64,000 nt of DNA from Zea mays (Eukaryota; Streptophyta; Magnoliopsida; Poales; Poaceae): assembly GCF_902167145.1 (NCBI RefSeq), contig NC_050104.1, forward strand, positions 12,980,001 through 13,044,000. Direction: 5' to 3'. The position numbers were made by a program, and so were the translations under genes. The notes below the pieces were generated by a model. The model did no database searches. It was not told the DNA's origin and worked only from the letters and a program-made list of their open reading frames with translations. Every line of letters begins with the position of its first letter. Within the stretch, counting starts at the first letter, position 1. Below, one piece after another: positions 17,378-39,080 of the stretch.

Positions 17378-18662
17378 TGAAAGGGAATTAGGCTTACACC
17401 TATTTCCTAAATGATTTTGATGGTTGAATTGCCCAACACAAATAATTGGACTAACTAGTTTGCTCTAGTATATAAGTTATACAGGTGCCAAAGGTTCACA
17501 CTTAGCCAATAAAAAGACCAAGAAATGGGTTAAACAAAGAGAGCAAGGGATAACCGAAGGCTGCCCTGGTCTGGTGCACCGGACTGTCCGGTGTGCCACC
17601 GGACAGTGTCCGGTGCACCAGGGAACTCCAAGCTGAACTCTTCACCTTCGGGAAAACTCAGAGGCGCTCGGCTATAATTCACTGGACTATCCGGTGTACA
17701 CCGGACAGTGTCCGGTGCTCCAGGAATGAAGCGACTCTGAACTCGCCAGCTTCGGGAATTCGGTCCGCTATAATTCACCGGACATGTCCGGTGTACACCG
17801 GACTGTCCGGTGAGCCAGCGGAGCAACGGCTACTTCGCGCCAACGGTCACCTGCAGAGTCATTTAATGCGCGCCAGAGCGCAGCGGAAGTCAGGCACGCG
17901 CGAAGTGGCGCACCGGACACTCTACAGTACATGTCTGGTGTGCCACCGAACATCCAGGCGGGCCCAGCAGTCAGAGCTCCAACGGTCGGAACCCAACGGC
18001 CTGGTGACGTGGCTGGCGCACCGGACAGTATCCGATGGCGGTGCGCCATGCGACAGCAGCCTCCACCAAACGGCTAGTTTGGTGGTTGGGGTTATAAATA
18101 CCCCCAACCACGCCACATTCAAGTAATCCAAGTTTCTCAACTTCCAACCACTTACAAGAGCTAGGCATTCAATACAAGACACACCCAAGTGATCAAATCC
18201 TCTCCCAAATTCCACAAAAGCTTTAGTGCTAAGTGAGAGAGATTTGTTGTGTTCTTTTGAGCTCTTGCGCTTGGATTGCTTTCTTCTTTCTCATTCTTTG
18301 CTTGTGATCAAAACTCAATTGTAACCAAGGCAAGAGACACCAATTGTGTGGTGGTCCTTGCGGGGAAGTTTTGTTCCTGGTTGATTTGAGAAGAGAAAGC
18401 TCACTCGGTCCGAGGGACCGTTTGAGAGAGGGAAAGGGTTGAAAGAGACCCGGTCTTTGTGACCACCTCAACGGGGAGTAGGTTTGCAAGAACCGAACCT
18501 CGGTAAAACAAATCCGCGTGTCACACTCTTTATTCGTTTGCGATTTGTTTTGCACCCTCTCTCTCAGACTCGATTATATTTCTAACGCTAACCCGGCTTG
18601 TAGTAGTGATTAACTTTGTAATTTTTCAGTTTCGTCCTATTCATCCCCCTCTAGGCGACTTT
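17378..18662 (+). repeat. E3 5' LTR (all but last two bases)
   Basis: Sirevirus palindromes at about 17576-17618, 17683-17718, 17779-17815 and degenerate ones to 18030. TATAAATA box at 18093-18100. E5 inserted after CTAGGCGACTTT (TSD ACTTT, 18658-18662); the final CA is at 39077-39078. Confidence 0.92.
18093..18100 (+). promoter_or_regulatory. TATA box of E3 5' LTR
   Basis: GGGGTTATAAATACCCCC, a TATA box inside a short palindrome. Repeated in the 3' LTR at 46595-46602. Confidence 0.7.
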
Positions 18663-21600
18663 TGTCACACCCGGGTTTTAGGGGTCCAAAGCCCAGGCGC
18701 GAACATAATCACCAGGTGTGCTGGGACCAAGTCTCACACATATGATGAATCATGGCACATGATCGAATGTCACATCTTTACTATATAACAGGAATTCTAT
18801 ACAAAAATAAATAAATAATTACATTATAAGGAGACAACGGTCCAGCAACCCAAAGTTGACTGGGAGACGACGACCTAGATCTCTCACAAACTCATCGCAG
18901 CATCCTCCATGCGCCTCATTCTGCGGTACCTGTTCTTGACCTGTGGGGGGTGTGAGACAGCAAGAGTGAGCTCACATACGTTCATCGCTCAACAAGTTGT
19001 GGGGAATAATGTGCATGAACTCGCCAAAGGTGGGAGATCACGTGAAGTGTAAGGCTTACCAAAGAGGATGGTTAGAGCTGAGCATTGCTTTTAAAGTTGG
19101 TCAAAATTTTATTAGCAGTTACTAAGTATAAGTAAATACCAACCCAATTAAGTAGTAGAACAAAAGTAACATCATCACCTGCGATGCAATGCATATGACA
19201 AATTGAATTTAGTTCCATAAATTAATCATGTGAGGGTCCGAGCCGCTCATGACCGTGAGCACGGCTAGTATACCAGTTTTACACTCTGCAGAGGTTGCGC
19301 ATCTTTACCCACAAGTCATGTTACCCATCTGCCAAGGGATCGCGACTTCCCATACACCTCTACCAAGGAGGCGAGGCAGGGTAACACTACGAGGCCTTTA
19401 CAAAGTTCCACTAGCTTCAGAAAACCCGCTACAGTTTATAGGAAGCTCCAATGCAGGAATCCCTTGCAGGACCGCCATCGCAGCAAAATCCTCCCGAGGG
19501 CCTCCCTACACTGACTACTCCCCTACTGCCCTTGCCCCTTTCGGGTAAGGTAGTCCTCCACTAGCTTTCCTAATTAATCAGCCAAGGGCGTCCCATTAAA
19601 CCCTTGTGGTAGCACTGTTTTCTCGGGTGGTCGCTCCATGTTCCAATTAACATAATGATCTTATCATGAACGATAAATAACAACGGATAACAAAAGTATA
19701 ATCATGAGTAATGTATCTTCATACCCAAAACCACATAAAGCACTAGCAAGTACTACCCAAAAAGTTCAGTGGTAAACAAGGTATAAAGATAGACAAACTA
19801 GGGTCTCCTATTGGGTCCCATCAAAATTAACCTATGCAGATCATTATGATTAATTAGAACATGAGTGGGTAAAAGAAGTGATCAAGGGCACAACTTGCCT
19901 GGGACTTGAGATTCCGGGTACCAGGATGATCTTCAGATGACACGTGTCCTCACTGCTAGTCGTAGCAATACAAACAAACATGTATAGGCAAAATTAACAT
20001 TACACCAAACATAAGCACAAACTGAATAATAATAATCTAGGCGACATTACGAGATTGTAGAAACAAGAACCACTAAATTCGGAGTTACGGTTAAGGAGTT
20101 ATGGTTTTCCAAAGATCCACGTGGTTAAATATAGAATAGCCTAAGTGCAACATTTTAACCTATATTTCATGACAAAACAAAGTTGACAGATGATAATAAA
20201 TTTTATTGTGAGACTAATGCAACTGGAATGGATCAAAACGGACTTAATATGAATTTTCTAGGAATTAAACAATATCTAGGAATTATTTATACATTAAAAA
20301 TCAATTTCTAAATTTATTTATTGAATTACTCGGGTCTCTGGTTCGTGCGCATAAAAACAGAAAACTAGAGGGGCCTCTGCGCAAATAAACCTAAGACTCA
20401 GAGCACAGTAGCTAGGGACGGCGGGTTTTATTATGCAAAAGCCAAGGGTTTATTCGCAAAAGAGTTAAGTGAAGAGGTATCGTTGGATATGGGGCGCCCG
20501 ATCCGAATCCTACGCCCACGATTAAATCGGCTCGCGTAGTGAACCGGTACACATTGCGGGCCGATGGATTTAAATCCTCTGGTCTAGATTTTAATACATC
20601 ACGATCGAACACCATCCAACGATCCAACGATCCACGACTGAGATGAGCTGGGCCGAACCGGTACGCAACATCTAATCCTAACCGTCAACGCAAAGATCTA
20701 CGGTCCAACCCTTCCCTTCCCCAGATCTAATCTCATCCGCTCAAACCTCATCAAACGGCCATAAGGCCATCTTCCACCTGGCAACATCCAAGCAGCGGCA
20801 CCCACAACCCCGCGGCGGCAAGAAGCCCACCGGTGGTCACCGACCTCCACACCCCAAGCCCCAACCACCGATTCGATCATCGATTCGTGCGGAGAAGAAC
20901 AATGCGAACACCTGAGGGGGTACCTTTTTGGAAGAAACGGCAGGAACACTGTTGGCCACGGCAGGGAGCGGATGACGGTGAGGGAAGGGGCCCCGATGAG
21001 CGATTCGGTGAGTCGGTGTGCAAATTTGTCCAGGTGTTGCCAAGACGAGCTTCAGTACGCCCCGACAACAAACCAGGACCACACAACGGTCTGTAAGCAA
21101 CGATGAAGACCCCGGACGGCGGTGGCGGCCTGAGCACCTACACTGTTAATTCACGGTGAACCCGTAGAGCGACCAAGGCAAGTCCCGGGCGGAATTTATA
21201 GGGGCATAGAGTCCGCGGAGAGATGAATTGCTGATTCCGCACGGCTGGCGCGGAGGTTGAGCCCCAGGATTTGCGGACGGCGTTGAGAGGATCTCGCGTG
21301 ATTTCGTTGAGACGAAGTCTGGTTGGGGAGAACACCCAAGCGGAACCAGTCCCCGCGTGCGGAATGAGGTCCTAGATCGGAGCAGGCCCCACCAGCGATA
21401 TCCTCCACGAGTGCCCCGAAGAGGAGGGGTCGTTTGCGCCAGCTAGAGCCGCGAACCTTGGAGCGGCTGTTACAGCGGCGCCCGACCCGCGCGGAGATGG
21501 AGGAAGCGGATGAATCCGACATCCAGGGCCCACATGGACGCGAGGGGAGTGAGCACGCGGTGAGAAGAGACGCGGCCCACGCGTCAGGGAGAAATACTCC

Positions 21601-22234
21601 ATCCCACGCGTGATGGGAGGCTGGGCAGCGGGCCCCAATTGTCAGCCAGCGCAGGCCACACGGTGAGGAGCCGGCCAGTGGGGCATCGTCGTCAGTGACA
21701 GGGCGAGTGACGGGCTGGCGAGGTGAGGGGAGAGTGGGCCGAATTGTGCATGAGCGGCCCAGGTTAGTGTTTTTCTTTTATTCTTTTCCTGCTTTCTTAT
21801 TCCAAATTTCTATTTCTATTTCCAAATTCAACTCAGATTTTAGGTTTAAAATTCAAAATAAATTTAAAGTCAAAACTCCAATATGAATGTGACAATATCT
21901 TATTAATTAATTAATTTCCCTATTTAGACAAATGCTTTCAAATATAAAGCTCATACACACTAAAATAGAGAATAGGTATTTGAAAAATATCATTTCTAGT
22001 TTGTACTTTTCTTTAGTGAATAGTTATAAATATATTTCAATAAAGTAACAAATTTATATGGAGATTATTTTAAATCTTTATTGGAAACATAATTATGTTA
22101 TGTGGGGTTGTCCCACATGTAAGAAAAATTTTTATTGGAGGATTTTCTAGCACCAGAAACCTTTAGAGGGTTTATTTACTATTATTTTATTTATTAATTT
22201 ATTTGTTTTTCAAAATGAGATTTTAGGTGCTACA
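18663..22234 (-). repeat. E5 3' LTR (3572 bp, left copy)
   Basis: Its sequence is repeated almost exactly at 35499-39071. On the minus strand it contains a TATA-like TATAAAT (21200-21194) and, at about 19245-19645, a block homologous to 24586-24985 of the E6 LTR. No coding sequence; open frames inside are not conserved products. Confidence 0.9.
19245..19645 (-). other. Conserved LTR module shared by E5 and E6
   Basis: On the minus strand it contains, in the same order as plus-strand 24586-24985 of E6: GAAAACAGTGC, the CTGAxTAATTA block, a TTTGTAAAGGC-TCGTAGTG block, CCTTGGTAG, AACCTCTGCAGAGTGT and CGTGCTCACGGTxATGAGCGG. The rest of the two LTRs is not obviously alike. The second E5 copy is at about 36082-36482. 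Confidence 0.7.
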
Positions 22235-22865
22235 AATCCTACCCCCTTAACAGAAATCTCGTCCTCGAGATTTGTAAGGGTGCATACTCATATTGTCTCG
22301 GAACATATGCACAAACAAAGAAATCTCGGCATGATGCATAACGCATTAGCAAAACATGGGGTCGATTAGACCTTATTATTCGTTCTTAAAATAATATCAT
22401 ATCATCCACTAACTAAAGTAACATCTAGATCTTACAAATAGTAGTAATTTATATATATGTTTATGTAGCTTGGTGGAGCTGGTGGTGGTGGTGGAGGTTG
22501 TTGTTGTTGTTGTCTCTCCAACCGCGCTTGCCTTATTTCTTGGCGGACCTGACGTATTTCCTCGCGTTCTTGTCTTATCTGATTTTGCATCTCGGTCACC
22601 AGGTCTGTTAATTGTTGTATTACTAGTCTTTGGGCAGCAACCACTTGATCGATTTCAACAGGTGGAGGATTTGGAGGATTCATTTATTTTGCTGTTGCGT
22701 GATAATCTTTCCTTTCCTGGTATTGACCATGAAAGTTAGAAGCATATGGTAATAGTTTTGCAAAGGAAATTATTCAATAAGCAGAATGAATAAGCTAGTA
22801 GCTGGTTATAATCTGAAGATTCTTTAGTAGGGCTTAATCTTTATTTTATGTTCAGATTGGGGTAA
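22235..22865 (-). other. E5 internal region, 3' side, with polypurine tract
   Basis: Next to the LTR, on the minus strand, it reads CTCGAGGACGAGATTTCTGTT then AAGGGGGTAGGATT, the polypurine tract typical of Del/Tekay chromoviruses (22235-22250). It then holds the short ORF 22683-22432. E6 is inserted at 22866 (TSD GGTAA, 22861-22865). Confidence 0.8.
22432..22683 (-). CDS. Short Gln/Pro-rich ORF in E5 (gag N-terminus-like, 83 aa)
   Basis: 83 residues with a heptad-like helix (VVAAQRLVIQQLTDLVTEM), a charged Arg/Glu/Gln segment with repeated EIRQxRxE units, then poly-Gln and poly-Pro. Composition and layout resemble the N-terminal helix plus Gln-rich stretch of chromovirus gag (compare E6 gag at 27283), but no capsid domain or zinc knuckle follows. 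It could be a gag remnant or a chance ORF. It is the only plausible coding segment of E5. Confidence 0.35.
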   Translation of the reverse strand: MNPPNPPPVEIDQVVAAQRLVIQQLTDLVTEMQNQIRQEREEIRQVRQEIRQARLERQQQQQPPPPPPAPPSYINIYINYYYL

Positions 22866-22866
22866 T

Positions 22867-22930
22867 GTAACGCCCCGAATTTTGCAGTTAAATTTTTTCT
22901 TTTCTTTACTCGCCAAAATTCGGGCGTTAC
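22867..22930 (+). promoter_or_regulatory. Hairpin at the start of the E6 5' LTR
   Basis: Arms GTAACGCCCCGAATTTTG (22867-22884) and CAAAATTCGGGCGTTAC (22914-22930) pair over 17 bp with one extra C; the loop is about 29 nt and T-rich. The same structure occurs at 31883-31946 in the 3' LTR. Confidence 0.8.
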
Positions 22931-24585
22931 CTTTTCTTTTTCTTTTTCCCTTCGCTAAACCTTGACCTTTTCCAAAGTTCTAGCGGGATTCGGTTTGGAT
23001 TTCCCGTGTAAGAAAAACCCTAAATACTTTATGTTGTTTGATGCACCATGCCGAACCTTGCATTTCTTTTGATTGCTTTGAAAGTGCAAATGCATTCATG
23101 TAGGAAGATCGGATTTCGAAAATGAGGAGAAGATCTTTTCTTTCTTTTTCTCTCTCTTTCTCTCTCCTCTTTTTCTCTCTCTCCCGCGCCGTGGGCCGAC
23201 CCCGGCCGGCCCAGCCGCCCCTGGCGCCCCCCCCCCCTTGGGCCCAATAGGCCCATGCCGCCCCCCCCCCCCACCTCCCCTTTTTCCCCAAACCCTCTCC
23301 CTCTCCCTCTCATTTTCTCTCATTCTCTCCCTAGCGCCGCCCCTACCCCTGCCCTAAGCCGCCGCCGCCCCCTGCCCCGTCGCCGATCGGCCGCCCCGCC
23401 CCATCCCCGTCCCCGTCGCCGGTGAGGCCCCTCCCCCTCTCCTCCCTCCCCCATTCCCCCTCCCCTTTTCCCCTCGCCGCTCGGCGCCATGGCTGCCGCC
23501 ATGGCCGGCTCACCCTGGCCGCCCGCCCCGGCCGCCTGGCCCCCTGGCCGCCGCCCGGCCGCCTGGCTCGGCCGCCCGCCTGGCCCCTGGCCGCGCGCCG
23601 CCCGGCCGCCTGGCTCGGCTGCCCGCTTGGCCGCCTGGCCGCGTGCCCGCCTGGCCGCGCGCCCCTGGCCGCGCCCCGGCCGCCTGGCCCTTGGCCGCGC
23701 CCCCCTGGCCGCTCGGCCGGCTCAGCCGCCCCGGCTCGGCCGCCCCTGCGCGCCCTGCCCCCGGCCGGTTCAACCGCCCCTAGGGCCGGTTCAACCGCCC
23801 CCCCCCCTCTGTTTTTTTTATTTTTTTTTATTTTATTTTATTTACTTTCTGTGATCATAGCTATTTTATTTTAGGTAGGCTAATCATTGTTAATGTTATT
23901 GAAATATGAAGCTTAATTTAAAATTCCGTTATGCTAGTTGATTTATGTAGTTAATTGTTTACCTCGTGCAATGTTGATCAACTTAAAATGATTAGGTTTC
24001 CATTAGTGTATATGTAACAGAATTCTTTTGTTAAGAACCAATTGTAATTGATCGTTAGTGCATAAGATTTAACCCCCTGCGAGACCCTTTCCCGTTTCTT
24101 TCTAACCATAACAAATGCAATGTCAAATGTCATACTTGATGCATATTCGCTTTACTTGTTCCCTTGTATGGTGTACTGTTCTTTTGTATTAAATATGTGG
24201 ATGTATGTATGTTTGCGCTCGCATAGAGAACGATCCGGTCGAAGAGACCGAGGAACTCGCAGGAGAAGCCCCTGAGCAGCAGTCGTTTGGTGGAGGCAAG
24301 TGTCCTTTGACCTATCTCTGTCCTATTCATTCTTTAATTCACCCCCCGCATTACACCTTTATACCTAAGGATTGACTAGCTTTTGTTATCCATGTCCTTG
24401 TTTACCTATTTGGGTTGGATTATTACTGTTTAGCTTTATGCTATTGCTCAACTCTAATCAATGAACATGATGAGATTATCTATGATACGCTGTTTTCCCT
24501 TCTCTTATTATGATGTTGTACTTGTGGTATTCAAGGGGGCTCGAGCGGTTTCTCGAGTGCCTCTCCGTAAGGACCTGTTCTATGG

Positions 24586-24985
24586 ATGACCGCCCGGGAA
24601 AACAGTGCAACCATGAGGGTGGAATGGGGTGCCCTTAGCTGAATAATTAGAGGATCCGGGGTGTAGTTCACTTAGCCGTCGTGCCGTCAATGGGGCTCGG
24701 TGTATGCGGCTCGCTCTGCCAAGTTTGGGTTCGCCCCTTGGGGAGGAGTGCGGTGCATTTAGGAAACCTAACGGGTGGCTACAGCTCCGGGGAATCTTTG
24801 TAAAGGCTACGTAGTGAAACCCTGCCTATTCACCTTGGTAGTGTTTAAGGGTTTGATCGGCCCGAGGCAAGAGGGAATCACGGCTTGTGGGTAAAGTGCA
24901 CAACCTCTGCAGAGTGTTATGAAACTGATATATCAGTCGTGCTCACGGTTATGAGCGGCCAAGGGAGCTCCAGTGATTAGTGGTA
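24586..24985 (+). other. Conserved LTR module shared by E6 and E5
   Basis: Homologous to minus-strand 19645-19245. Includes GGGAAAACAGTGCAACCATG, TTTGTAAAGGCTACGTAGTG, AACCTCTGCAGAGTGTTATG and CGTGCTCACGGTTATGAGCG. Second E6 copy at about 33603-34003. Confidence 0.7.
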
Positions 24986-25615
24986 CTTGATCAGAGACAT
25001 TGTGGTACAGGTGGTTATGAGATTGATGGTTTTGGTTATGACTATGGTGCTGGTAAGTGGTATTCTTTCCGTTTGGAAAGGGTACATCGGGTTAATAACT
25101 TGGGTTAATGCTAAAACTTGGCTTTCTACTAGTAAATAATAATCTGACCAACTAAAAGCAACTGCTTGACTTATCCCCACATAAAGCTAGTCCACTACAG
25201 CCAAACAGGATACTTGCTGAGTATGTTGATGTGTACTCACCCTTGCTCTACACACCAAACCCCCCCCCAGGTTGTCAGCATTGCAACCACTGCTCAGGCG
25301 AAGATGAAGCTGTGGAAGGAGACTTCCAGGAGTTCCAAGACTACGACGAGTTCTAGGTGTGGGTTAGCGGCAACCCCCAGTCGGCTGCCTGTGAAGGCCG
25401 CGTTATCTACGTTTCTTTTCCGCACTTTGATTTATTGTAAGAACTATATGGACGTCTCAGACGTATGATGTAATCGACTATTTCCCTTATTAATACCATT
25501 TTGAGCACTGTGTGATGATGTCCATGTTATGTAACTGCTGTGTACGTGAATAACTGATCCTGGCACGTACATGGTTCGCATTCGGTTTGCCTTCTAAAAC
25601 CGGGTGTGACATAAG

Positions 25616-25628
25616 TGGTATCAAAGCC
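25616..25628 (+). promoter_or_regulatory. E6 primer binding site (tRNA-Met)
   Basis: TGGTATCAAAGCC, four bases after the LTR end; typical of Del/Tekay elements. Confidence 0.85.
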
Positions 25629-25865
25629 GTGCTGACTGTAGGACCGCTAACCTAGAGTAGAATGGTCGTTCTAAGGACTATAGACCTCTGTCTCTTCCTT
25701 GACTTTGATATCCCTTCAAAAGTTGGTCATACCGACCAAACCTATGTTCTACTATATATTATACCTTGCTAAAAAATTGTGTTTCATTCTGATCCTTCAT
25801 TTACTTATTACTTGCTGGTCATATTAATTCTGTTCTCACCCTTTTGCTTGCGATGTCTTTTGTAG
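25629..25865 (+). other. E6 leader between primer site and orf0
   Basis: About 240 bp with no ORF of note. It ends in a pyrimidine-rich stretch and TTTTGTAG directly before the orf0 ATG, which looks like a 3' splice site. An out-of-frame ATG at about 25852 opens a very short upstream frame. Confidence 0.6.
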
Positions 25866-26879
25866 ATGGCTCGACTTAGACACACTGCACGTAAGTCAGT
25901 CATCCCCTTCTTACCCTCCCGCCTTGCTGAGCGTCCGCTTCGCCGTCCCGTGGCCGGACAGTCCAGCCACTTGGAGAGACTACACCACCGCCTGTGTGAG
26001 GAGCAGGAACGTCGACGACAGGAGCAGCAGAGCTCTTCCTTCTCGCTCCACCAGGAGATAGAGTCCGTGAGGAGCTGCTCCCCTGTGCTTCCTCTGGAGC
26101 CGCCCCCTGCACCACCACTGGGCGCCCCAGCTTCTGGAGCAGCTGCTGGAGGAGACCCAGACGACGGAGATGGCGATGACAGCTCGAGCCACGACACCGA
26201 CTTCTCTGCTAACCCCGAGCCGGAAGGATGGGTTGCTCGACCCATCACTCGCGACGCTGCTCGCGGGTGTCACTTCCACGATGCGCTCGACACCCTGCTA
26301 CGTCGGGCATTTGACCGGCATACTTGGTCCGTCGAGTATCGCTGTGTGGTCTACCAGCATAGTCGCGGGGTCTACCCGGACCGCTGGGAGGTGACTTGCT
26401 TGGTGCGCTGCCCGGAGGACAGTCTCCAGGGTGCGGAGGCCTGTTCAGAGCACTATTCTATCTCTGAGCGGGACTCAGCTGAGGCAGCCATGCAAGATGC
26501 TGCACGGCGTGCGCTTTCGCACTACTGCTCGGTTTTCGGTGGGGCAGCTGACGGTCTTGACCTGAAGTATTACCCCCGCCGTCCATCTGGCAGCACAGGA
26601 GGCGTGATTGTTTCACCTGTCGGTGAGGGCAATCCTAGGTTGAGCAGCACAGTCAACCTAGCCGCCGTGCTAAACACGGAGCTGGACCATGCATTAGACG
26701 AGCTGAGTAGGGCTCGTGCTGAGATCGCCCTGCTGCGGGCTGAGCGCGCGGAACGTCGTTATTTGGATGGTGGTTCCCCCGCTCCCGTCGGGACTCAGCA
26801 CCCGTACCGCTCACCTCAGCGTGGACACCAGTCTTATGGCAATCCCGACTGCAAGACCAAGATAAATCTAGAACCATAG
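25866..26879 (+). CDS. orf0: sense ORF upstream of gag with histone-H3-like N-terminus (337 aa)
   Basis: Not a gag or pol part. Residues 1-11 read M-A-R-L-R-H-T-A-R-K-S; after Met removal, A1, R2, T6, A7, R8, K9 and S10 fall on the same positions as in histone H3. Next come a basic segment (12-30), a charged helix (35-56), a Pro/Ala-rich and acidic linker (75-112), and a folded-looking domain at 125-225 with helix 138-149, strands about 155-166, 173-182 and 191-200, and helix 202-224 (SAEAAMQDAARRALSHY). This alpha-beta-beta-beta-alpha order recalls a dsRNA-binding domain, but the usual Lys cluster is absent. A coiled coil follows (265-298). The ATG is the first in frame and sits right after TGTAG. 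Intact, no stops. Function unknown; related orf0 genes are known from rice RIRE3/RIRE8 elements. Confidence 0.8.
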   Translation: MARLRHTARKSVIPFLPSRLAERPLRRPVAGQSSHLERLHHRLCEEQERRRQEQQSSSFSLHQEIESVRSCSPVLPLEPPPAPPLGAPASGAAAGGDPDDGDGDDSSSHDTDFSANPEPEGWVARPITRDAARGCHFHDALDTLLRRAFDRHTWSVEYRCVVYQHSRGVYPDRWEVTCLVRCPEDSLQGAEACSEHYSISERDSAEAAMQDAARRALSHYCSVFGGAADGLDLKYYPRRPSGSTGGVIVSPVGEGNPRLSSTVNLAAVLNTELDHALDELSRARAEIALLRAERAERRYLDGGSPAPVGTQHPYRSPQRGHQSYGNPDCKTKINLEP

Positions 26880-27282
26880 ATCGCTAGAGTTGGATCTTGT
26901 AATTAATACGAAATATATGCATAGAAGCTTCAGTCTTAGCGTTAGTCTCAGTCTTAGTTAGTCTTAGTTAGACAGGGTAGTTTGCTATATCCTGTGCATT
27001 TATGTTTGTCATGATGAACTATGTTTGGTTTGGATCTTTGTAATGACTGTCACCAGAGTGTGGGTATCCCCTGCATTTTGGTTTACCTGTTATGTTAATA
27101 AAGTTAGTTATATAGTTGGGAAACCCATTATTCTCCTTTCCTCTTTATCTGAGAAGCTGTGTGGTCTGTGTTGGAGATCAGTGAAGATGCTCACCTGCTC
27201 AGTGCTGTTGAGGAATTCTATTCTCTTTTCTTATGCTGCAAGATCTGCCAGATCAGTTCTGATGTGTGGTTGCATTCTGCAG
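26880..27282 (+). other. Spacer between orf0 and gag with splice-acceptor-like end
   Basis: AT-rich, with short TCTTAGTTAG repeats (about 26935-26975). It ends TGCATTCTGCAG immediately before the gag ATG, a good 3' splice-site match. No ORF of its own is supported. Confidence 0.6.
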
Positions 27283-28242
27283 ATGTCAGAGAACAGGCGC
27301 AGAGGAGGAAGGCGTGCTCAGCAGGAGCGAGCCGCTCAACAGGAGGAGGCGCCCCAGCAGCAGCAGCTGCCACCCCCGCCCCCGATGTCCATCGAGCAGA
27401 TGTTTCTGATGCAAACTCAGGCAGTTCAAGCCATCGGTCAGACTTTGGCCGCCATTCAGCAGCAGCAGCAGCAACAGCAGCAAGCACCACCTCAGCCTCA
27501 GATGCCTCAGATGCCCAGAGACAAGCGTGCTGAATTCATGAGAGGTCATCCACCAACGTTCGCTCACTCTTCTGACCCCATGGATGCTGAAGATTGGCTG
27601 CGCACTGTGGAGCGGGAGTTGCATACCGCTCAGTGCGATGACAGGGAGAAAGTTCTGTATGGTCCCCGTCTGTTGAGAGGAGCAGCCCAGTCATGGTGGG
27701 AGTCTTACCTCGCCACCCATGCCAACCCCGACACCATCACCTGGGAAGAATTTAGGGGTAGCTTTCGTCAGTACCATGTTCCTGCAGGTCTGATGACAGT
27801 GAAGAAGGAGGAGTTCCTGGCCCTCAAGCAAGGGCCATTGTCTATCAGTGAGTATCGGGACAAGTTTCTGCAATTGTCTCACTATGCTCCTGAAGATGTC
27901 AACACTGATGCCAAGCGGCAGTACCGTTTCCTGAGAGGCTTGGTTGACCCTCTGCAGTATCAGCTGATGAATCACACCTTCCCGACATTCCAGCACCTGA
28001 TTGATAGAGCGATCATGACGGAGAGAAAGCGCAAGGAGATGGAAGATCGTAAGCGCAAGATCAGTGGACCCCAGCCTGGAAGCAGCAGCCGCCCTCGTTT
28101 TTCAGGCAATCAACCTCAGCAGTTCAGGCAGAACCAGCGTCCACCTCAGCAGCATCAGCAGTTCCAAAGGCAGTATCCTCAGCATCAGTACCAGAACCGT
28201 CAGAGCAATCAGTCAGGAGGTCAGTTTCAGAAGCAGAATTAG
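27283..28242 (+). CDS. gag: Chromovirus gag, ends at a premature TAG (E6)
   Basis: Start chosen at MSENRRRGGRRAQQE, directly after CAG; the frame is open further upstream, but that part looks non-coding. A Gln/Pro-rich N-terminus is followed by a Retrotrans_gag capsid domain from about residue 85 (FMRGHPPTF, DWLRTVERELHTA, AAQSWWESYL, FRGSFRQYHVP, LKQGPLSISEYRDKFLQLS, DRAIMTERKR) and a Gln-rich linker. The frame stops at TAG (28240-28242) where CAG is the likely ancestor; the same frame continues straight on into the zinc knuckle and pol. Capsid is complete, nucleocapsid lies beyond the stop. A leaky stop is an alternative: the codon is followed by CAA. Confidence 0.88.
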   Translation: MSENRRRGGRRAQQERAAQQEEAPQQQQLPPPPPMSIEQMFLMQTQAVQAIGQTLAAIQQQQQQQQQAPPQPQMPQMPRDKRAEFMRGHPPTFAHSSDPMDAEDWLRTVERELHTAQCDDREKVLYGPRLLRGAAQSWWESYLATHANPDTITWEEFRGSFRQYHVPAGLMTVKKEEFLALKQGPLSISEYRDKFLQLSHYAPEDVNTDAKRQYRFLRGLVDPLQYQLMNHTFPTFQHLIDRAIMTERKRKEMEDRKRKISGPQPGSSSRPRFSGNQPQQFRQNQRPPQQHQQFQRQYPQHQYQNRQSNQSGGQFQKQN

Positions 28243-31200
28243 CAAGCACCTCGTCTTCCTGCCCCAGCAAATCAGCAGAACAGTCAGGCAGCACCAGCTC
28301 AGGTTGGAAACAGGGCATGTTTCCACTGTGGAGAGCAAGGCCACTGGGTGATGCAATGTCCGAAGAAGGCAGCCCAGCAGCAGTCAGGCCCCAATGCCCC
28401 AGCAAAGCAGAATGTGCCTCAGCCTGGAGCAGGCAATCGCCCTCAACAGCGCTATAATCATGGAAGGCTGAACCACTTGGAGGCTGAAGCAGTTCAGGAG
28501 ACCCCCGGCATGATAGTAGGTATGTTCCCAGTCGACTCCCATATTGCAGAAGTGTTATTTGATACTGGAGCAACGCATTCTTTCATTACTGCATCATGGG
28601 TAGAAGCACATAATCTTCCAATTACTACCATGTCAACCCCCATTCAAATTGACTCAGCCGGTGGTAGAATTCGAGCCGATAGCATTTGTTTGAATATAAG
28701 TGTGAAAATAAGGGGGATAGCGTTTCCCGCCAACCTTATAGTAATGGGTACTCAGGGAATAGATGTCATCCTAGGGATGAATTGGCTAGACAAGTATCAG
28801 GCAGTTATCAGTTGTGATAAAAGGACAATCAAGTTGGTGTCCCCACTAGGAGAGGAAGTGGTGACCGAGTTAGTCCCACCTGAGCCGAAGAAAGGAAGTT
28901 GTTATCAGATGGCTGTCGATAGCAGTGAAGCAGACCCAATTGAGAGTATCAAGGTTGTGTCTGAATTCCCAGATGTGTTTCCAAAGGACTTACCGGGTAT
29001 GCCACCAGAGCGGAAAGTTGAGTTTGCCATAGAGCTTCTTCCTGGAACCGCCCCCATCTTTAAGAGAGCTTACAGAATATCCGGACCAGAATTGGTTGAG
29101 CTTAAGAAGCAAATTGATGAGCTGTCAGAGAAAGGTTACATTCGGCCAAGCACCTCGCCTTGGGCCGCCCCTGTCTTATTTGTGGAGAAGAAAGATGGCA
29201 CCAAGAGGATGTGCATTGATTATCGAGCTTTGAATGAGGTCACGATCAAGAACAAGTATCCCTTGCCTAGAATAGAAGATCTGTTCGACCAGTTGAGAGG
29301 AGCCAGTGTGTTCTCCAAGATTGATCTGAGGTCAGGTTATCATCAGCTCAGGATCCGACCTTCGGACATTCCGAAGACGGCATTCATTTCCAAGTATGGG
29401 TTGTATGAGTTCACAGTGATGTCTTTTGGTTTGACCAATGCGCCAGCATTCTTCATGAACTTGATGAACAGTGTATTCATGGATTACCTTGATAAGTTTG
29501 TGGTGGTATTCATTGATGATATTCTGGTTTATTCTCAAAGCGAAGAAGAGCATGCAGATCATTTGAGGATGGTGTTGCAGAGATTGCGAGAGCACCAGTT
29601 GTATGCAAAGTTGAGCAAGTGTGAGTTCTGGATCAGTGAAGTCCTGTTCTTGGGTCACATAATCAACAAGGAAGGATTGGCTGTGGATCCGAAGAAAGTG
29701 GCGGACATTTTGAACTGGAAAGCGCCAACAGATGCTAGAGGAATCAAGAGTTTCATTGGAATGGCCGGATATTATCGGCGATTCATTGAAGGGTTTTCGA
29801 AGATTGCGAAACCGATGACAGCGTTGCTAGGCAACAAAGTTGAGTTCAAATGGACCCAGAAATGTCAAGAGGCCTTTGAAGCGCTGAAAGAGAAGTTGAC
29901 TACAGCGCCTGTCCTAGTCTTGCCCGATGTGCACAAGCCCTTCTCGGTGTATTGTGATGCTTGTTACACAGGTTTGGGATGTGTGTTGATGCAAGAGGGA
30001 AGAGTTGTGGCTTACTCGTCCCGACAGCTGAAGGTTCATGAGAAGAACTACCCAATCCATGATCTAGAGTTGGCAGCAGTGGTTCACGCACTGAAGACAT
30101 GGAGGCACTATCTGTATGGACAGAAATGTGATGTTTACACAGACCACAAGAGTCTGAAGTACATATTCACTCAGTCAGAGTTGAACATGAGGCAACGAAG
30201 ATGGTTAGAGCTGATCAAAGACTATGAGTTGGAGATTCATTACCATCCAGGCAAAGCAAACGTAGTGGCAGATGCTTTGAGCAGAAAGAGTCAAGTCAAT
30301 CTGATGGTCGCTCGCCCGATGCCTTATGAGTTGGCCAAAGAGTTTGACAGGTTGAGTCTCGGATTTCTGAACAATTCGCGAGGAGTCACAGTTGAATTGG
30401 AACCTACCTTGGAGCGCGAAATCAAAGAAGCGCAGAAGAATGATGAAAAAATCAGTGAGATTCGGCGACTGATTCTAGAAGGCAAAGGCAAAGATTTTCG
30501 AGAAGATGCAGAAGGCGTGATATGGTTCAAAGACCGCTTGTGTGTTCCCAATGTCCAGTCTATTCGGGAGTTGATTCTTAAGGAAGCTCATGAGACAGCT
30601 TATTCGATTCACCCTGGCAGTGAGAAGATGTATCAGGATCTGAAGAGGAAATTCTGGTGGTATGGAATGAAGAGGGAAATCGCAGAGCATGTGGCTATGT
30701 GTGATAGTTGTCGAAGAATTAAGGCAGAACACCAGAGACCTGCTGGATTGTTGCAACCGTTGCAGATCCCTCAGTGGAAATGGGATGAAATTGGTATGGA
30801 TTTCATAGTCGGATTGCCTCGCACTCGAGCCGGCTACGATTCTATTTGGGTAGTGGTGGACCGTTTGACCAAGTCAGCCCACTTCATACCTGTCAAGACC
30901 AATTACAGCAGTGCAGTATTGGCAGAATTGTATATGTCTCGGATCGTTTGTCTTCATGGTGTGCCAAAGAAGATAGTGTCAGATAGAGGAACGCAGTTCA
31001 CCTCTCATTTCTGGCAGCAGTTGCATGAAGCCTTGGGCACGCATCTGAATTTCAGTTCAACTTATCACCCGCAGACAGATGGTCAGACTGAAAGAACCAA
31101 TCAAATTCTTGAAGACATGTTGAGAGCCTGTGCGTTGCAAGATCAGTCCGGATGGGACAAGCGATTGCCTTATGCAGAGTTTTCCTATAACAACAGTTAC

Positions 31201-31845
31201 CAGGCCAGTTTGAAGATGTCACCATTTCAGGCGCTCTATGGAAGGAGTTGCAGAACTCCGTTGCAATGGGATCAGCCTGGAGAGAAGCAAGTGTTTGGGC
31301 CAGACATTCTGCTTGAAGCCGAAGAGAACATCAAGATGGTCCGAGAGAATCTGAAGATAGCGCAATCGAGGCAGCGAAGCTATGCAGACACAAGAAGAAG
31401 AGAGCTGAGTTTCGAAGTCGGAGACTTTGTCTATCTGAAAGTGTCACCGATCAGAGGAGTCAGAAGATTCGGAGTGAAAGGCAAGCTAGCACCCCGCTAC
31501 ATTGGTCCGTATCAGATTCTTGCAAGACGAGGAGAAGTGGCCTATCAGCTCAGTTTGCCAGAGAGTTTGTCTGCTGTGCATAATGTCTTTCATGTGTCTC
31601 AGTTGAAGAAGTGCTTGCGTGTGCCAGAAGAGCAGTTGCCAGTGGAAGGTCTTGAGGTCCAGGAGGACTTGACCTACGTTGAGAAGCCAGTGCAAATCCT
31701 TGAGGTTGCAGACCGAGTCACCCGAAGGAAGACCATCAGAATGTGCAAAGTCAGATGGAATCACCACTCTGAGGAAGAAGCAACCTGGGAGCGTGAAGAT
31801 GATCTGATGGCCAAGTACCCAGAGCTCTTTGCTAGCCAGCCCTGA
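28243..31845 (+). CDS. pol: Chromovirus pol with nucleocapsid knuckle and chromodomain (E6), open
   Basis: Open frame of 1200 codons in the gag frame, after the single stop. In order: zinc knuckle [14 protein letters not shown] (about 28320); aspartic protease [12 protein letters not shown] (about 28552); reverse transcriptase with [25 protein letters not shown] and catalytic FIDDILVYS (about 29510); RNase H from [14 protein letters not shown] (about 29950) to the NVVADALSR block; integrase with an HHCC zinc domain ([15 protein letters not shown]...CDSCRR) and DDE residues in [18 protein letters not shown] and [13 protein letters not shown]; and a C-terminal chromodomain (about 31672-31810) with [26 protein letters not shown]. 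Of the three aromatic-cage positions, Tyr and Trp look present and the third is His. No damage seen in this part. Confidence 0.93.
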
Positions 31846-31881
31846 ATCTCGAGGGCGAGATTCTTTTAAGGGGGATAGGTT
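31846..31881 (+). promoter_or_regulatory. E6 polypurine tract
   Basis: Just after the pol stop: CTCGAGGGCGAGATTCTTTT, then AAGGGGGATAGG, next to the 3' LTR. Second-strand primer site, matching the E5 tract in layout. Confidence 0.85.
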
Positions 31882-34628
31882 TGTAACGCCCCGAATTTTG
31901 CAGTTAAATTTTTTCTTTTCTTTACTCGCCAAAATTCGGGCGTTACCTTTTCTTTTTCTTTTTCCCTTCGCTAAACCTTGACCTTTTCCAAAGTTCTAGC
32001 GGGATTCGGTTTGGATTTCCCGTGTAAGAAAAACCCTAAATACTTTATGTTGTTTGATGCACCATGTCGAACCTTGCATTTCTTTTGATTGCTTTGAAAG
32101 TGCAAATGCATTCATGTAGGAAGATCGGATTTCGAAAATGAGGAGAAGATCTTTTCTTTCTTTTTCTCTCTCTTTCTCTCTCCTCTTTTTCTCTCTCTCC
32201 CGCGCCGTGGGCCGACCCCGGCCGGCCCAGCCGCCCCTGGCGCCCCCCTGGGCCCAATAGGCCCATGCCGCCCCCCCACCTCCACTTTTTCCCCAAACCC
32301 TCTCCCTCTCCCTCTCATTTTCTCTCATTCTCTCCCTAGCGCCGCCCCTACCCCTGCCCTAAGCCGCCGCCGCCCCTTGCCCCGTCGCCGATCGGCCGCC
32401 CCGCTCGGCCGCCCCGCCCCGTCCCCGTCCCCGTCGCCGGTGAGGCCCCTCCCCCTCTCCTCCCTCCCCCATTCCCCCTCCCCTTTTCCCCTCGCCGCTC
32501 GGCGCCATGGCCGCCGCCATGGCCGGCTCGCCCTGGCCGCCCGCCCCGGCCGCCTGGCCCCCTGGCCGCCGCCCGGCCGCCTGGCTCGGCCGCCCGCCTG
32601 GCCCCTGGCCGCGCGCCGCCCGGCCGCCTGGCTCGGCTGCCCGCTTGGCCGCCTGGCCGCGTGCCCGCCTGGCCGCGCGCCCCTGGCCGCGCCCCGGCCG
32701 CCTGGCCCTTGGCCGCGCCCCCCTGGCCGCTCGGCCGGCTCAGCCGCCCCGGCTCGGCCGCCCCTGCGCGCCCTGCCCCCGGCCGGTTCAACCGCCCCTA
32801 GGGCCGGTTCAACCGCCCCCCCCCCTCTGTTTTTTTTTATTTTTTTTATTTTATTTTATTTACTTTCTGTGATCATAGCTATTTTATTTTAGGTAGGCTA
32901 ATCATTGTTAATGTTATTGAAATATGAAGCTTAATTTAAAATTCCGTTATGCTAGTTGATTTATGTAGTTAATTGTTTACCTCGTGCAATGTTGATCAAC
33001 TTAAAATGATTAGGTTTCCATTAGTGTATATGTAACAGAATTCTTTTGTTAAGAACCAATTGTAATTGATCGTTAGTGCATAAGATTTAACCCCCTGCGA
33101 GACCCTTTCCCGTTTCTTTCTAACCATAACAAATGCAATGTCAAATGTCATACTTGATGCATATTCGCTTTACTTGTTCCCTTGTATGGTGTACTGTTCT
33201 TTTGTATTAAATATGTGGATGTATGTATGTTTGCGCTCGCATAGAGAACGATCCGGTCGAAGAGCCCGAGGAACTCGCAGGAGAAGCCCCTGAGCAGCAG
33301 TCGTTTGGTGGAGGCAAGTGTCCTTTGACCTATCTCTGTCCTATTCATTCTTTAATTCACCCCCCGCATTACACCTTTATACCTAAGGATTGACTAGCTT
33401 TTGTTATCCATGTCCTTGTTTACCTATTTGGGTTGGATTATTACTGTTTAGCTTTATGCTATTGCTCAACTCTAATCAATGAACATGATGAGATTATCTA
33501 TGATACGCTGTTTTCCCTTCTCTTATTATGATGTTGTACTTGTGGTATTCAAGGGGGCTCGAGCGGTTTCTCGAGTGCCTCTCCGTAAGGACCTGTTCTA
33601 TGGATGACCGCCCGGGAAAACAGTGCAACCATGAGGGTGGAATGGGGTGCCCTTAGCTGAATAATTAGATGATCCGGGGTGTAGTTCACTTAGCCGTCGT
33701 GCCGTCAATGGGGCTCGGTGTATGCGGCTCGCTCTGCCAAGTTTGGGTTCGCCCCTTGGGGAGGAGTGCGGTGCATTTAGGAAACCTAACGGGTGGCTAT
33801 AGCTCCGGGGAATCTTTGTAAAGGCTACGTAGTGAAACCCTGCCTATTCACCTTGGTAGTGTTTAAGGGTTTGATCGGCCCGAGGCAAGAGGGAATCACG
33901 GCTTGTGGGTAAAGTGCACAACCTCTGCAGAGTGTTATGAAACTGATATATCAGTCGTGCTCACGGTTATGAGCGGCCAAGGGAGCTCCAGTGATTAGTG
34001 GTACTTGATCAGAGACATTGTGGTACAGGTGGTTATGAGATTGATGGTTTTGGTTATGACTATGGTGCTGGTAAGTGGTATTCTTTCCGTTTGGAAAGGG
34101 TACATCGGGTTAATAACTTGGGTTAATGCTAAAACTTGGCTTTCTACTAGTAAATAATAATCTGACCAACTAAAAGCAACTGCTTGACTTATCCCCACAT
34201 AAAGCTAGTCCACTACAGCCAAACAGGATACTTGCTGAGTATGTTGATGTGTACTCACCCTTGCTCTACACACCAAACCCCCCCCAGGTTGTCAGCATTG
34301 CAACCACTGCTCAGGCAAAGATGAAGCTGTGGAAGGAGACTTCCAGGAGTTCCAAGACTACGACGAGTTCTAGGTGTGGGTTAGCGGCAACCCCCAGTCG
34401 GCTGCCTGTGAAGGCCGCGTTATCTACGTTTCTTTTCCGCACTTTGATTTATTGTAAGAACTATATGGACGTCTCAGACGTATGATGTAATCGACTATTT
34501 CCCTTATTAATACCATTTTGAGCACTGTGTGATGATGTCCATGTTATGTAACTGCTGTGTACGTGAATAACTGATCCTGGCACGTACATGGTTCGCATTC
34601 GGTTTGCCTTCTAAAACCGGGTGTGACA
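31882..34628 (+). repeat. E6 3' LTR (2747 bp)
   Basis: Near-identical to the 5' LTR: hairpin at 31883-31946, GC tract about 32527-32810, shared module about 33603-34003. Poly-C runs are shorter and an extra CTCGGCCGCCCCG-like unit occurs near 32404. Confidence 0.93.
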
Positions 34629-34633
34629 GGTAA

Positions 34634-35498
34634 CCAGTCGTATAAGGTGAATATCCAAGGGTAAGATAGAATCTGTCAAGATGAGATATATATGGGTGAG
34701 ATAGACTACAAGATGTAGGTTAAAAGTTTGTTTGTTGTTAGATGGGAATAGATCATATTCGTTAGAAGGTTATGATATAAGCCAAGTGGTTGGGATAAGT
34801 ATGCTTGCTAGAACAAGACAAGTCTCTATGAATAAGACATAATCTTTTGAGATTAGTTAGATCTAGTAGGATAGGGTAGAGTCTTTTTCGAGATAAGATG
34901 GATCTATTAAGGTAAGAAAGAATCTTTTAATATAAGAGAGAATCATTTAAAATAAAAGAGAATCTTTTTTTAAGATAAAATGGATCTATTAATATAGGAG
35001 AGTATCTTTTAAGATAAGAGAATCTATTAAGATAGGAAAGAATCTTTCAAGATAAGATTGATCTATTAAAATAGATACACTTCAATGGAGAGTAATCTAG
35101 GCTGTTTAGTTATCTTATGAATTCTATTTATGCCTATATGTATATGCGGATGTAATTGTGGACATTACTCCACAACTCATCACACTCAATCAAAGATCCA
35201 AATCAAACAAGTATCATAAGAACAAGCATTTCAAGCATATAGATACAAAAAAATAGTTTTTTTCCTAAGAGTAGGTCTCCTATTCCTAAAGGTCACTTTT
35301 AGGCACAGGACTTCAAAGTGTGAAATCCACATTTGTCTTTAGAATGAAAAGGTAAGAATAATCAGAGTAAGCGGAATTAGATGAGAAAAGATCAAGAAAA
35401 GTTTAGAAAAGAATCAGAGTAGCAAGGGTAAGTAAGTATTGGTTGTCCAGTTCTATCTAGGTTTCGTCCTACAGTCAACATTCCTCTGATACCACTTC
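34634..35498 (-). other. E5 internal region, 5' side
   Basis: Leader of E5 on the minus strand. No ORF supported. Between about 34860 and 35095 lies a degenerate repeat of roughly 30-40 bp built on AAGATAAGATGGATCTATTA and AGAGAATCTTTT. Confidence 0.7.
35484..35494 (-). promoter_or_regulatory. E5 primer binding site (tRNA-iMet)
   Basis: TGGTATCAGAG on the minus strand, four bases after the end of the right LTR (GTGTGACA); it fixes E5's orientation. Confidence 0.88.
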
Positions 35499-38400
35499 TG
35501 TCACACCCGGGTTTTAGGGGTCCAAAGCCCAGGCGCGAACATAATCACCAGGTGTGCTGGGACCAAGTCTCACACATATGATGAATCATGGCACAGGATC
35601 GAATGTCACATCTTTACTATATAACAGGAATTCTATACAAAAATAAATAAATAATTACATTATAAGGAGACAACGGTCCAGCAACCCAAAGTTGACTGGG
35701 AGACGACGGCCTAGATATCTCACGAACTCATCGCAGCATCCTCCATGCGCCTCATTCTGCGGTACCTCTTCTTGACCTGTGGGGGGGTGTGAGACAGCAA
35801 GAGTGAGCTCACATACGTTCATCGCTCAACAAGTTGTGGGGAATAATGTGCATGAACTCGCCAAAGGTGGGAGATCACGTGAAGTGTAAGGCTTACCAAA
35901 GAGGATGGTTAGAGCTGAGCATTGCTTTTAAAGTTGGTCAAAATTTTATTAGCAGTTACTAAGTATAAGTAAATACCAACCCAATTAAGTAGTAGAACAA
36001 AAGTAACATCATCACCTGCGATGCAATGCATATGACAAATTGAATTTAGTTCCATAAATTAATCATGTGAGGGTCCGAGCCGCTCATGACCGTGAGCACG
36101 GCTAGTATACCAGTTTTACACTCTGCAGAGGTTGCGCATCTTTACCCACAAGTCATGTTACCCATCTGCCAAGGGATCGCGACTTCCCATACACCTCTAC
36201 CAAGGAGGCGAGGCAGGGTAACACTACGAGGCCTTTACAAAGTTCCACTAGCTTCAGAAAACCCGCTACAGTTTATAGGAAGCTCCAATGCAGGAATCCC
36301 TTGCAGGACCGCCATCGCAGCAAAATCCTCCCGAGGGCCTCCCTACACTGACCACTCCCCTACTGCCCTTGCCCCTTTCGGGTAAGGTAGTCCTCCACTA
36401 GCTTTCCTAATTAATCAGCCAAGGGCGTCCCATTAAACCCTTGTGGTAGCACTGTTTTCTCGGGTGGTCGCTCCATGTTCCAATTAACATAATGATCTTA
36501 TCATGAACGATAAATAACAACGGATAACAAAAGTATAATCATGAGTAATGTATCTTCATACCCAAAACCACATAAAGCACTAGCAAGTACTACCCAAAAA
36601 GTTCAGTGGTAAACAAGGTATAAAGATAGACAAACTAGGGTAACCTATTGGGTCCCATCAAAATTAACCTATGCAGATCATTATGATTAATTAGAACATG
36701 AGTGGGTAAAAGAAGTGATCAAGGGCACAACTTGCCTGGGACTTGAGATTCCGGGTACCAGGATGATCTTCAGATGACACGTGTCCTCACTGCTAGTCGT
36801 AGCAATACAAACAAACATGTATAGGCAAAATTAACATTACACCAAACATAAGCACAAACTGAATAATAATAATCTAGGCGACATTACGAGATTGTAGAAA
36901 CAAGAACCACTAAATTCGGAGTTACGGTTAAGGAGTTATGGTTTTCCAAAGATCCACGTGGTTAAATATAGAATAGCCTAAGTGCAACATTTTAACCTAT
37001 ATTTCATGACAAAACAAAGTTGACAGATGATAATAAATTTTATTGTGAGACTAATGCAACTGGAATGGATCAAAACGGACTTAATATGAATTTTCTAGGA
37101 ATTAAACAATATCTAGGAATTATTTATACATTAAAAATCAATTTCTAAATTTATTTATTGAATTACTCGGGTCTCTGGTTCGTGCGCATAAAAACAGAAA
37201 ACTAGAGGGGCCTCTGCGCAAATAAACCTAAGACTCAGAGCACAGTAGCTAGGGACGGCGGGTTTTATTATGCAAAAGCCAAGGGTTTATTCGCAAAAGA
37301 GTTAAGTGAAGAGGTATCGTTGGATATGGGGCGCCCGATCCGAATCCTACGCCCACGATTAAATCGGCTCGCGTAGTGAACCGGTACACATTGCGGGCCG
37401 ATGGATTTAAATCCTCTGGTCTAGATTTTAATACATCGCGATCGAACACCATCCAACGATCCAACGATCCACGGCTGAGATGAGCTGGGCCGAACCGGTA
37501 CGCAACATCTAATCCTAACCGTCAACGCAAAGATCTACGGTCCAACCCTTCCCTTCCCCAGATCTAATCTCATCCGCTCAAACCTCATCAAACGGCCATA
37601 AGGCCATCTTCCACCTGGCAACACCCAAGCAGCGGCACCCACAACCCCGCGGCGGCAAGAAGCCCACCGGTGGTCACCGACCTCCACACCCCAAGCCCCA
37701 ACCACCGATTCAATCATCGATTCGTGCGGAGAAGAACAATGCGAACACCTGAGGGGGTACCTTTTTGGAAGAAACGGCAGGAACACTGTTGGCCACGGCA
37801 GGGAGCGGATGACGGTGAGGGAAGGGGCCCCGATGAGCGATTCGGTGAGTCGGTGTGCAAATTTGTCCAGGTGTTGCCAAGACGAGCTTCAGTACGCCCC
37901 GACAACAAATCAGGACCACACAACGGTCTGTAAGCAACGATGAAGACCCCGGACGGCGGTGGCGGCCTGAGCACCTACACTGTCAATTCACGGTGAACCC
38001 GTAGAGCGACCAAGGCAAGTCCCGGGCGGAATTTATAGGGGCATAGAGTCCGCGGAGAGATGAATTGCTGATTCCGCATGGCTGGCGCGGAGGTTGAGCC
38101 CCAGGATTTGCGGACGGCGTTGAGAGGATCTCGCGTGATTTCGTTGAGACGAAGTCTGGTTGGGGAGAACACCCGAGCGGAACCAGTCCCCGCGTGCGGA
38201 ATGAGGTCCCAGATCGGAGCAGGCCCCACCAGCGATATCCTCCACGAGTGCCCCGAAGAGGAGGGGTCGTTTGCGCCAGCTGGAGCCGCGAACCTTGGAG
38301 CGGCTGTTACAGCGGCGCCCGACCCGCGCGGATATGGAGGAAGCGGATGAATCCGACATCCAGGGCCCACATGGACGCGAGGGGAGTGAGCACGCGGTGA

Positions 38401-39071: not shown

Positions 39072-39080
39072 ACTTTCAAT

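Follow-up and report, generated by a model that had tools for sequence, protein, structure and literature searches.

A histone H3-like N-terminal tail on ORF0 proteins of maize Ty3/gypsy retrotransposons

Influenza NS1 and the self-methylation site of G9a are viral and cellular mimics of histone H3. H3K9 methylation is a major mark for transposon silencing in plants, and the region around this lysine is the part of H3 that is gripped by H3K9 methyltransferases, chromodomain readers and demethylases. What NS1, G9a and the disputed coronavirus ORF8 (PMC10833455) share with the protein described here is a short A-R-K-S/T-type segment in a non-histone protein. The present segment, a putative mimic, differs in that it lies at the very N-terminus, belongs to a plant retrotransposon protein and is longer in a second family (family C, where it extends to H3 residue 24).

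ORF0 proteins of the Retrosat2/RIRE3/ZMsat2/Sb7 type, described for grass Tekay elements (PMC3485330, PMC11728184), share with the orf0 studied here the site between the 5' LTR and gag, the size class, the disordered regions, a DRBM-like alpha/beta region and a C-terminal helix. Both papers describe the role of ORF0 as unknown, and ORF0s reportedly diverge strongly from one genus to another (PMC3485330). A difference is that no histone-like tail is described in the main text of PMC3485330 or PMC11728184, in which the word 'histone' has no occurrence. VANC proteins of Arabidopsis VANDAL transposons are transposon-coded accessory proteins that oppose silencing, as we propose ORF0 may do; compared by description only, they differ in being sequence-specific (PMC10398659).

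In this study, we analyzed a 64-kb stretch of Zea mays DNA (the window, 64,000 nucleotides), for which the original prediction was that a retrotransposon protein begins with a mimic of the H3 tail around lysine 9.

The element and its ORF0 protein

The window contains a complete LTR retrotransposon (22866-34628, + strand) with orf0, gag and pol between its LTRs (Table 1). Its Pfam domain order is gag-PR-RT-RH-INT with a chromodomain at the integrase C-terminus, as in Tekay (Del/Retrosat2) chromoviruses, and an extra ORF is present between the primer binding site and gag, the position of Retrosat2-type ORF0. On the basis of ORF0, LTR length and chromodomain type, the element was named a Tekay/Retrosat2-like chromovirus. 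The orf0 family of the window is young and abundant. The best 119 of 11,789 first-look candidates for orf0 matches in the Zea mays genome all covered residues 1-337 with 98-100% identity, and 116 of these 119 listed matches had no internal stop.

Table 1. Positions of the retrotransposon and its parts in the window
Feature	Position	Strand	Evidence or remark
Target-site duplication GGTAA (5 bp), left copy	22861..22865	+	Ends read
5' LTR, TGTAACGCC...GTGTGACA	22866..25611	+	98.66% identity to 31882-34628
Primer binding site TGGTATCAAAGCC, TGGTATC type	25616..25628	+	Starts 250 nt before orf0 ATG
H3-like core M-ARLRHTARKS, codons 1-11	25866..25898	+	DNA and translation
Conserved tail, codons 1-30	25866..25955	+	Lowest dN/dS within orf0; no structure in a low-confidence model
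orf0, 337 aa	25866..26879	+	Tail, helix 35-55, linker, alpha-beta-beta-beta-alpha 136-223, helix 257-300
gag (Retrotrans_gag, Ty3_capsid)	27283..28242	+	Pfam; ATG read in DNA
pol: protease, RT, RNase H, integrase, chromodomain	28351..31845	+	Pfam
Chromodomain-like region, group II type	31714..31830	+	Pfam Chromo E 0.0011 (below family cut-off) and alignment
Polypurine tract AAGGGGGATAGG	31868..31879	+	Read in DNA
3' LTR	31882..34628	+	LTR pair 98.66% identical
Target-site duplication GGTAA (5 bp), right copy	34629..34633	+	Ends read

The protein is 337 residues long, not about 125 as had been implied. An in-frame TAG stands directly before its ATG, which is therefore the first possible start of the frame if there is no splicing; apart from this start, the ORF has a Met only at residue 209. 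Acceptor-like, pyrimidine-rich stretches ending in AG were seen directly before the ATGs of orf0 (25845-25865, TTTTGTAG|ATG) and gag (27262-27282, CATTCTGCAG|ATG). Across all 16 aligned copies of subfamilies A and B (defined below), the eight bases that end the orf0 stretch showed no more than one change, and no clear conserved splice donor was seen in the leader. Alternative splicing to the two ATGs would account for access to gag behind an ORF of 337 codons. Downstream, gag and pol lie in one frame in this copy, yet form two ORFs split by a stop codon (28240-28350). The element is also flanked by two copies of a 3.6-kb repeat (18658-22235 and 35494-39072, 99.3% identical, same orientation), which probably represent the LTR pair of an older element, the present one having inserted within it.

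A Pfam search of orf0 returned no family at E <= 1, its structure model was weak (mean pLDDT 44.8), and a PDB fold search with the model gave no match at E <= 0.001. Residues 136-223 (26271-26534) are predicted in this weak model to follow the alpha-beta-beta-beta-alpha order of a dsRNA-binding domain, and a DRBM-like alpha/beta region was reported for Tekay ORFs of maize and sorghum (PMC11728184); it is this order and this report, rather than a fold match, that suggest the dsRNA-binding-domain-like reading. ORF0 relatives were also searched for in IMG/VR, where none was confirmed.

The chromodomain of the element lies at pol residues 1122-1160, and its PDB matches were headed by the unnamed protein 2m2l at E 7e-5, with Clr4 (E 0.099) and chromobox 1 (E 0.13) coming next. 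The Y/W/F cage of HP1-beta aligns with V/W/H in the element, so that positions 1 and 3 appear non-aromatic, although the alignment has little support around position 1. Group II chromodomains of seed plants lack the same two cage aromatics (PMC3605345, PMC6317226), and the element agrees with this type, with a weak alignment at the first cage site. Seed-plant chromovirus chromodomains are described as lacking the methyl-lysine cage and as having an unknown partner (PMC6317226). The element's own chromodomain had been listed among the candidate binders of the tail; with two of the three cage positions apparently non-aromatic (V and H at positions 1 and 3), this candidate is unlikely on sequence and was disfavoured.

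Likeness to H3 and conservation in the orf0 family

The DNA at 25866-25898 (ATGGCTCGACTTAGACACACTGCACGTAAGTCA) reads M-A-R-L-R-H-T-A-R-K-S, and seven of the ten residues after Met are identical, in register, to H3 1-10 (A1, R2, T6, A7, R8, K9 and S10), which confirms the starting observation of the original prediction. Q5 of H3, a residue touched by H3K9 readers, is replaced in ORF0 tails by H, C or K. First, when all ATGs on the two strands were counted (2,108 in the window), one was followed by a 7/10 match and seven by a 4/10 match, with none at 5 or 6; over all 10-mers in six frames of the window, the orf0 tail was the single 7/10 match and two others reached 6/10. Second, random draws of 10 residues gave at least 7/10 once in 2,000,000 when taken from the whole protein and never in 2,000,000 when taken from residues 2-41. 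Third, the alignment score of orf0 residues 1-29 with the H3 tail was equalled by 70 of 100,000 shuffles, and that of the subfamily B tail by 572 of 100,000. The H3 likeness of orf0 thus exceeds chance for one named motif, but that motif was chosen post hoc. Both the A-R-K-S/T core and the likeness beyond chance expected of a K9-type H3 mimic are found here. PDB searches with orf0 alone or with a 31-sequence profile gave no H3 match up to E 10. Stronger than these chance statistics is the comparative evidence from family C, whose likeness to H3 is closer.

A protein search with orf0 found 844 relatives, and one with the divergent relative P0116, which is identical to a copy in the Zea mays genome, found 820. 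The best 120 listed from each search were pooled into one alignment of 221 proteins, in which 114-115 rows reach the tail. These proteins comprise subfamily A, which is window-like, and subfamily B, with N-termini such as MARIRCTARKSMIPFLPSRLA. Most tail positions were well kept among these listed relatives: K9 in 113/115, T6 in 110/114, S10 in 107/115, Arg at position 4 in 108/114, A7 in 102/115, R8 in 98/115 and R2 in 93/114. Losses of Arg were mostly to H, C, W or Q, the changes that methylated CpG sites decaying in dead copies would be expected to leave. Of 116 listed N-termini, one was identical to H3 in register at 8/10 residues, 61 at 7/10, 40 at 6, 11 at 5 and three at 4 or fewer. The mean share of the commonest residue in the window family was 0.90 for residues 1-11 versus 0.76-0.88 elsewhere, so the core is not outstanding.

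Selection was analyzed by comparing the window copy with four intact B copies (out of 30 B loci). For codons 2-30, dS was 1.6-2.4, dN 0.086-0.133 and dN/dS about 0.045-0.063, compared with dN/dS of approximately 0.17-0.27 for residues 31-60, 0.38-0.66 for 61-120, 0.11-0.16 for 121-230 and 0.11-0.13 for 231-337. The proposed dN/dS check therefore gave the lowest ratio of orf0 to the tail; by dN alone, however, the tail is only level with residues 121-230 (0.091-0.113), and its low ratio is in large part due to high dS, synonymous sites of codons 2-30 being near saturation between A and B. Within the tail, dN was 0.10-0.22 for codons 2-11 versus 0.05-0.12 for codons 12-30. In three of the four pairs, replacements in codons 2-11 fell only at positions 3 and 5, both of which do not match H3, and in the fourth (B copy L025) Ala1 was replaced as well. 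The tail is maintained at the protein level. The expectation that residues 1-11 would be more conserved than those following them did not hold: the constrained unit spans residues 2 to about 30, and the core is conserved no more than the next 15-20 residues. This constraint runs to residue ~30 through VIPFLPSRLAERPLRR, a sequence unlike H3, and the residues beyond 11 probably serve a second function in the window family.

A second family with a closer likeness to H3

The genome was searched with the pattern M-A-R-T-[K/N/R/S/H/Q]-x-T-A-R-K, which gave 97 matches, whereas the reversed control gave none. Judged by their letters (lysine 4, glutamine 5), 17 of the 97 look H3-like. Thirty were made into loci, of which four were H3 genes and 26 came from one repeat family, family C. 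Loci of this abundant Ty3/gypsy family are L040-L051, L055-L068 and L071-L076 (e.g. C2:98898666-98898695). The family C ORF before gag starts with MARTRKTARKSTGPFGVPRHQLAPR (start sequence MARTRKTARKSTGPFGVPRHQLAPRHEGSS) and can be aligned with H3 1-24. S10, T11, G12 and P-R-x-Q-L-A agree with H3 with a gap of one residue, and since they lie outside the search pattern, this agreement was not selected for. A phmmer search of PDB with the member P0274 placed H3 at the top (E 0.034; residues 1-25 aligned to H3 1-24), and 57 of the best 60 of 119 matches were H3 or its variants, one of them named Cse4. With a profile of 26 members, the best E was 0.012 and the best 60 of 84 matches were all H3 or variants; each of these two E values is non-significant alone at the usual threshold. 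The best PDB match of the profile was human H3.8 (8kb5_A, MARTRWTARKSTGGIAPRKQLATK), which also has Arg at position 4; the difference is that H3.8 is a histone with a solved structure, whereas Pfam finds no histone fold in the ORF0s. None of 100,000 shuffles reached the score of the family C tail with H3, and 783 of 100,000 did so for residues 10-29 alone.

The C protein has approximately 191 residues. A single-sequence model gives a tail mostly without predicted structure followed by a single helix (36-138), and this helix of about 100 residues is predicted to be a coiled coil. In Pfam, two family C proteins had all families below cut-off, with ATG16 best (E 6e-7 and 2e-5) and no histone. The C ORF occupies the site that orf0 has in its element: in 5 of 9 examined copies it is preceded by a TGGTATC site at a distance of 241-251 nt (250 nt in the window), and gag lies downstream in L071-L076 (6/6), L058 and L069, its best pieces being 30-39% identical to the window gag. 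Seven of these eight copies also matched the protease at the beginning of pol. L058 and L069, the two that were followed further, showed no RT, and family C may thus be non-autonomous.

With one C protein as query, 1,676 related proteins were found (best 120 listed), and a genome search with one MPP-type member gave 5,165 first-look candidates. Among the listed proteins, Arg stood at position 4 in 110 of 111 rows, and the mean share of the commonest residue was 0.87 for residues 2-12, 0.93 for 13-27, 0.89 for 28-60 and 0.85 for 61-190. Losses of Arg and Ala in the core look like CpG decay. When L059 (MA type) was compared with five MPP-type copies, pN was 0.05-0.10 and pS 0.58-0.68 for codons 2-27, versus pN of 0.13-0.19 for the rest of the ORF; L059 was found via the pattern, which biases codons 1-10, and the five MPP copies by whole-protein similarity. 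As regards the start, 22 of 26 copies had no earlier in-frame ATG between the last stop and this start, within the 120 nt upstream, and 31 of the 120 listed proteins had a predicted start further upstream. Family C starts vary among MA-, MP-, ML- and MPP-RTRK, the last forming a large subfamily (MPPRTRK) that is one residue longer, and the residue after Met was P in 52, A in 28, S in 15 and L in 9 of 104 listed proteins. The predicted N-terminal register is kept within the window family, where 111 of 114 aligned rows have Ala as residue 2, but not in family C. Given this variation and the MPPRTRK form, a free Ala1 is not what selection keeps, nor is the exact N-terminal register.

The tail is the part common to both ORF0 proteins. 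In hhalign, the ORF0 profile (31 sequences) and the C profile (26) aligned only from residues 1-19 to 1-19, with 12/19 identical (63%), E 2e-4 for this one comparison and a probability of 46%. With P0274, the sole tblastn match on the window at E <= 1 was 25866-25910 (15 residues, 73%, E 0.077); P0252 did not match this segment and gave two other weak matches there (E 0.43 and 0.52). Common to A, B and C is R-x-R-x-T-A-R-K-S, and both families keep R4 (not K4), T6, A7, R8, K9 and S10. Seven of the eight residues common to the A and C cores have synonymously different codons, which argues against recent exchange between the families. In both families, the tail is mostly without predicted structure ahead of a helix. 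The proposed centring on K9 stands: T6-A7-R8-K9-S10 is kept as protein, most conserved codons having changed synonymously, and the likeness is found again, in stronger form, in family C. A short N-terminal module common to two otherwise dissimilar ORF0 proteins is new, even if it is an import signal.

Possible roles of the tail

We tentatively favor, as a real possibility though short of a probable one, the reading that the tail is disordered, is H3-like around K9 and engages writers or readers of H3K9 in the host. The N-terminal tail of orf0 resembles H3 around lysine 9, with K4 replaced by Arg, which would remove the site of the opposing mark. It stands ahead of a region with the predicted alpha-beta order of a dsRNA-binding domain and a helix in the window family, and ahead of the predicted helix of about 100 residues in family C. 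Through oligomerisation, several copies of the tail may be offered to writers, readers or erasers of the host H3K9 mark, the candidates being SUVH-type methyltransferases, CMT/ADCP1-type readers and JMJ demethylases. A disordered tail with an oligomerising helix could act as a multivalent decoy, so that the element is silenced less strongly, or as a multivalent tether to heterochromatin, the two being about equally likely. The nuclear location predicted for grass 5' additional ORFs (PMC11728184) speaks for this proposal, and the dispute over whether a coronavirus accessory protein mimics H3 through an internal ARKS motif (PMC10833455) speaks against it. A wider version, which we regard as doubtful, is that grass chromoviruses carry a portable H3K9-mimic tail on dissimilar ORF0 bodies, whose Lys9 would be methylated by the host and would divert or recruit heterochromatin machinery.

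The main rival, which appears rather unlikely, is that the tail serves nuclear localisation or nucleic-acid binding as a basic segment (R-x-R-x-T-A-R-K), its likeness to H3 reflecting the basic nature of both tails. The motif is charged at R2, R4, R8 and K9, basic residues go on in the window family (R19, R23, R26 and R27), and besides the nuclear prediction for grass ORFs, a basic signal is predicted in a Tekay ORF of sunflower (PMC11728184). However, T6 and S10, together with T11, G12 and P-R-x-Q-L-A of family C, are conserved like the charged residues although a basic signal needs none of them, and position 4 is held as R in 108/114 window-family and 110/111 family C rows among the listed proteins.

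It is unlikely that the tail is an ORF0 segment with a function internal to the element, such as Gag assembly or self-association, its H3 likeness being a coincidence combined with shared descent of the tails. In the window family, the conserved block runs to residue 30 and has its centre away from the H3-like residues, which would fit such a function, as would the greater uniformity of residues 13-27 than 2-12 in family C. On the other hand, family C is more H3-like than the window family, also beyond the shared core, and the function would need to be common to proteins with dissimilar bodies.

Plant CENH3 also starts with MARTK, and mimicry of this centromeric variant rather than canonical H3, as a way to reach centromeric chromatin, was considered and seems very improbable. 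The poplar tail (MARTKHPVARKRARSPKRSD; PMC11288735) has His5, as in the window copy, and A-R-K, yet the window copy is in register with this poplar CENH3 only at A1, R2 and H5. The in-register T6-A7-R8-K9-S10, as well as S-T-G and P-R-x-Q-L-A in family C, fit canonical H3. Conservation at the RNA level, either as a 5' splice site GTAAGT at codons 8-10 (CGTAAGTCA in the window copy, which we take to be a perfect splice donor consensus, with GTAAGT kept in 29 of 30 B copies read, also where Arg8 changed) or as another signal near the primer site, can hardly be credited, since seven other window-family copies read CGAAAGTCA and keep R-K-S without GTAAGT, while codons 2-30 are near synonymous saturation between A and B and seven of eight shared A/C core codons differ synonymously.

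With respect to the H3-like tail, a search of open-access literature found, among the titles and beginnings of abstracts listed, no paper on such a tail of a plant retrotransposon protein. ORF0 and viral histone mimicry are both known; what we regard as new is that they are combined here and that dissimilar ORF0 bodies share the tail. Reading the tail as an H3 mimic would, if true, give ORF0 a testable function and bear on how seed-plant chromoviruses without a methyl-lysine cage find or escape heterochromatin. If the portable-tail version were true, plant retrotransposons would encode a histone mimic, a single crop genome would contain thousands of candidate copies of it, and the tail would be a possible stand-in for the chromodomain cage lost by seed-plant chromoviruses. 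If abundant plant retrotransposons do copy the H3K9 tail onto accessory proteins, this would be a direct protein-level counter-move in the silencing conflict, in which the elements may imitate a tag that the plant itself uses for silencing.
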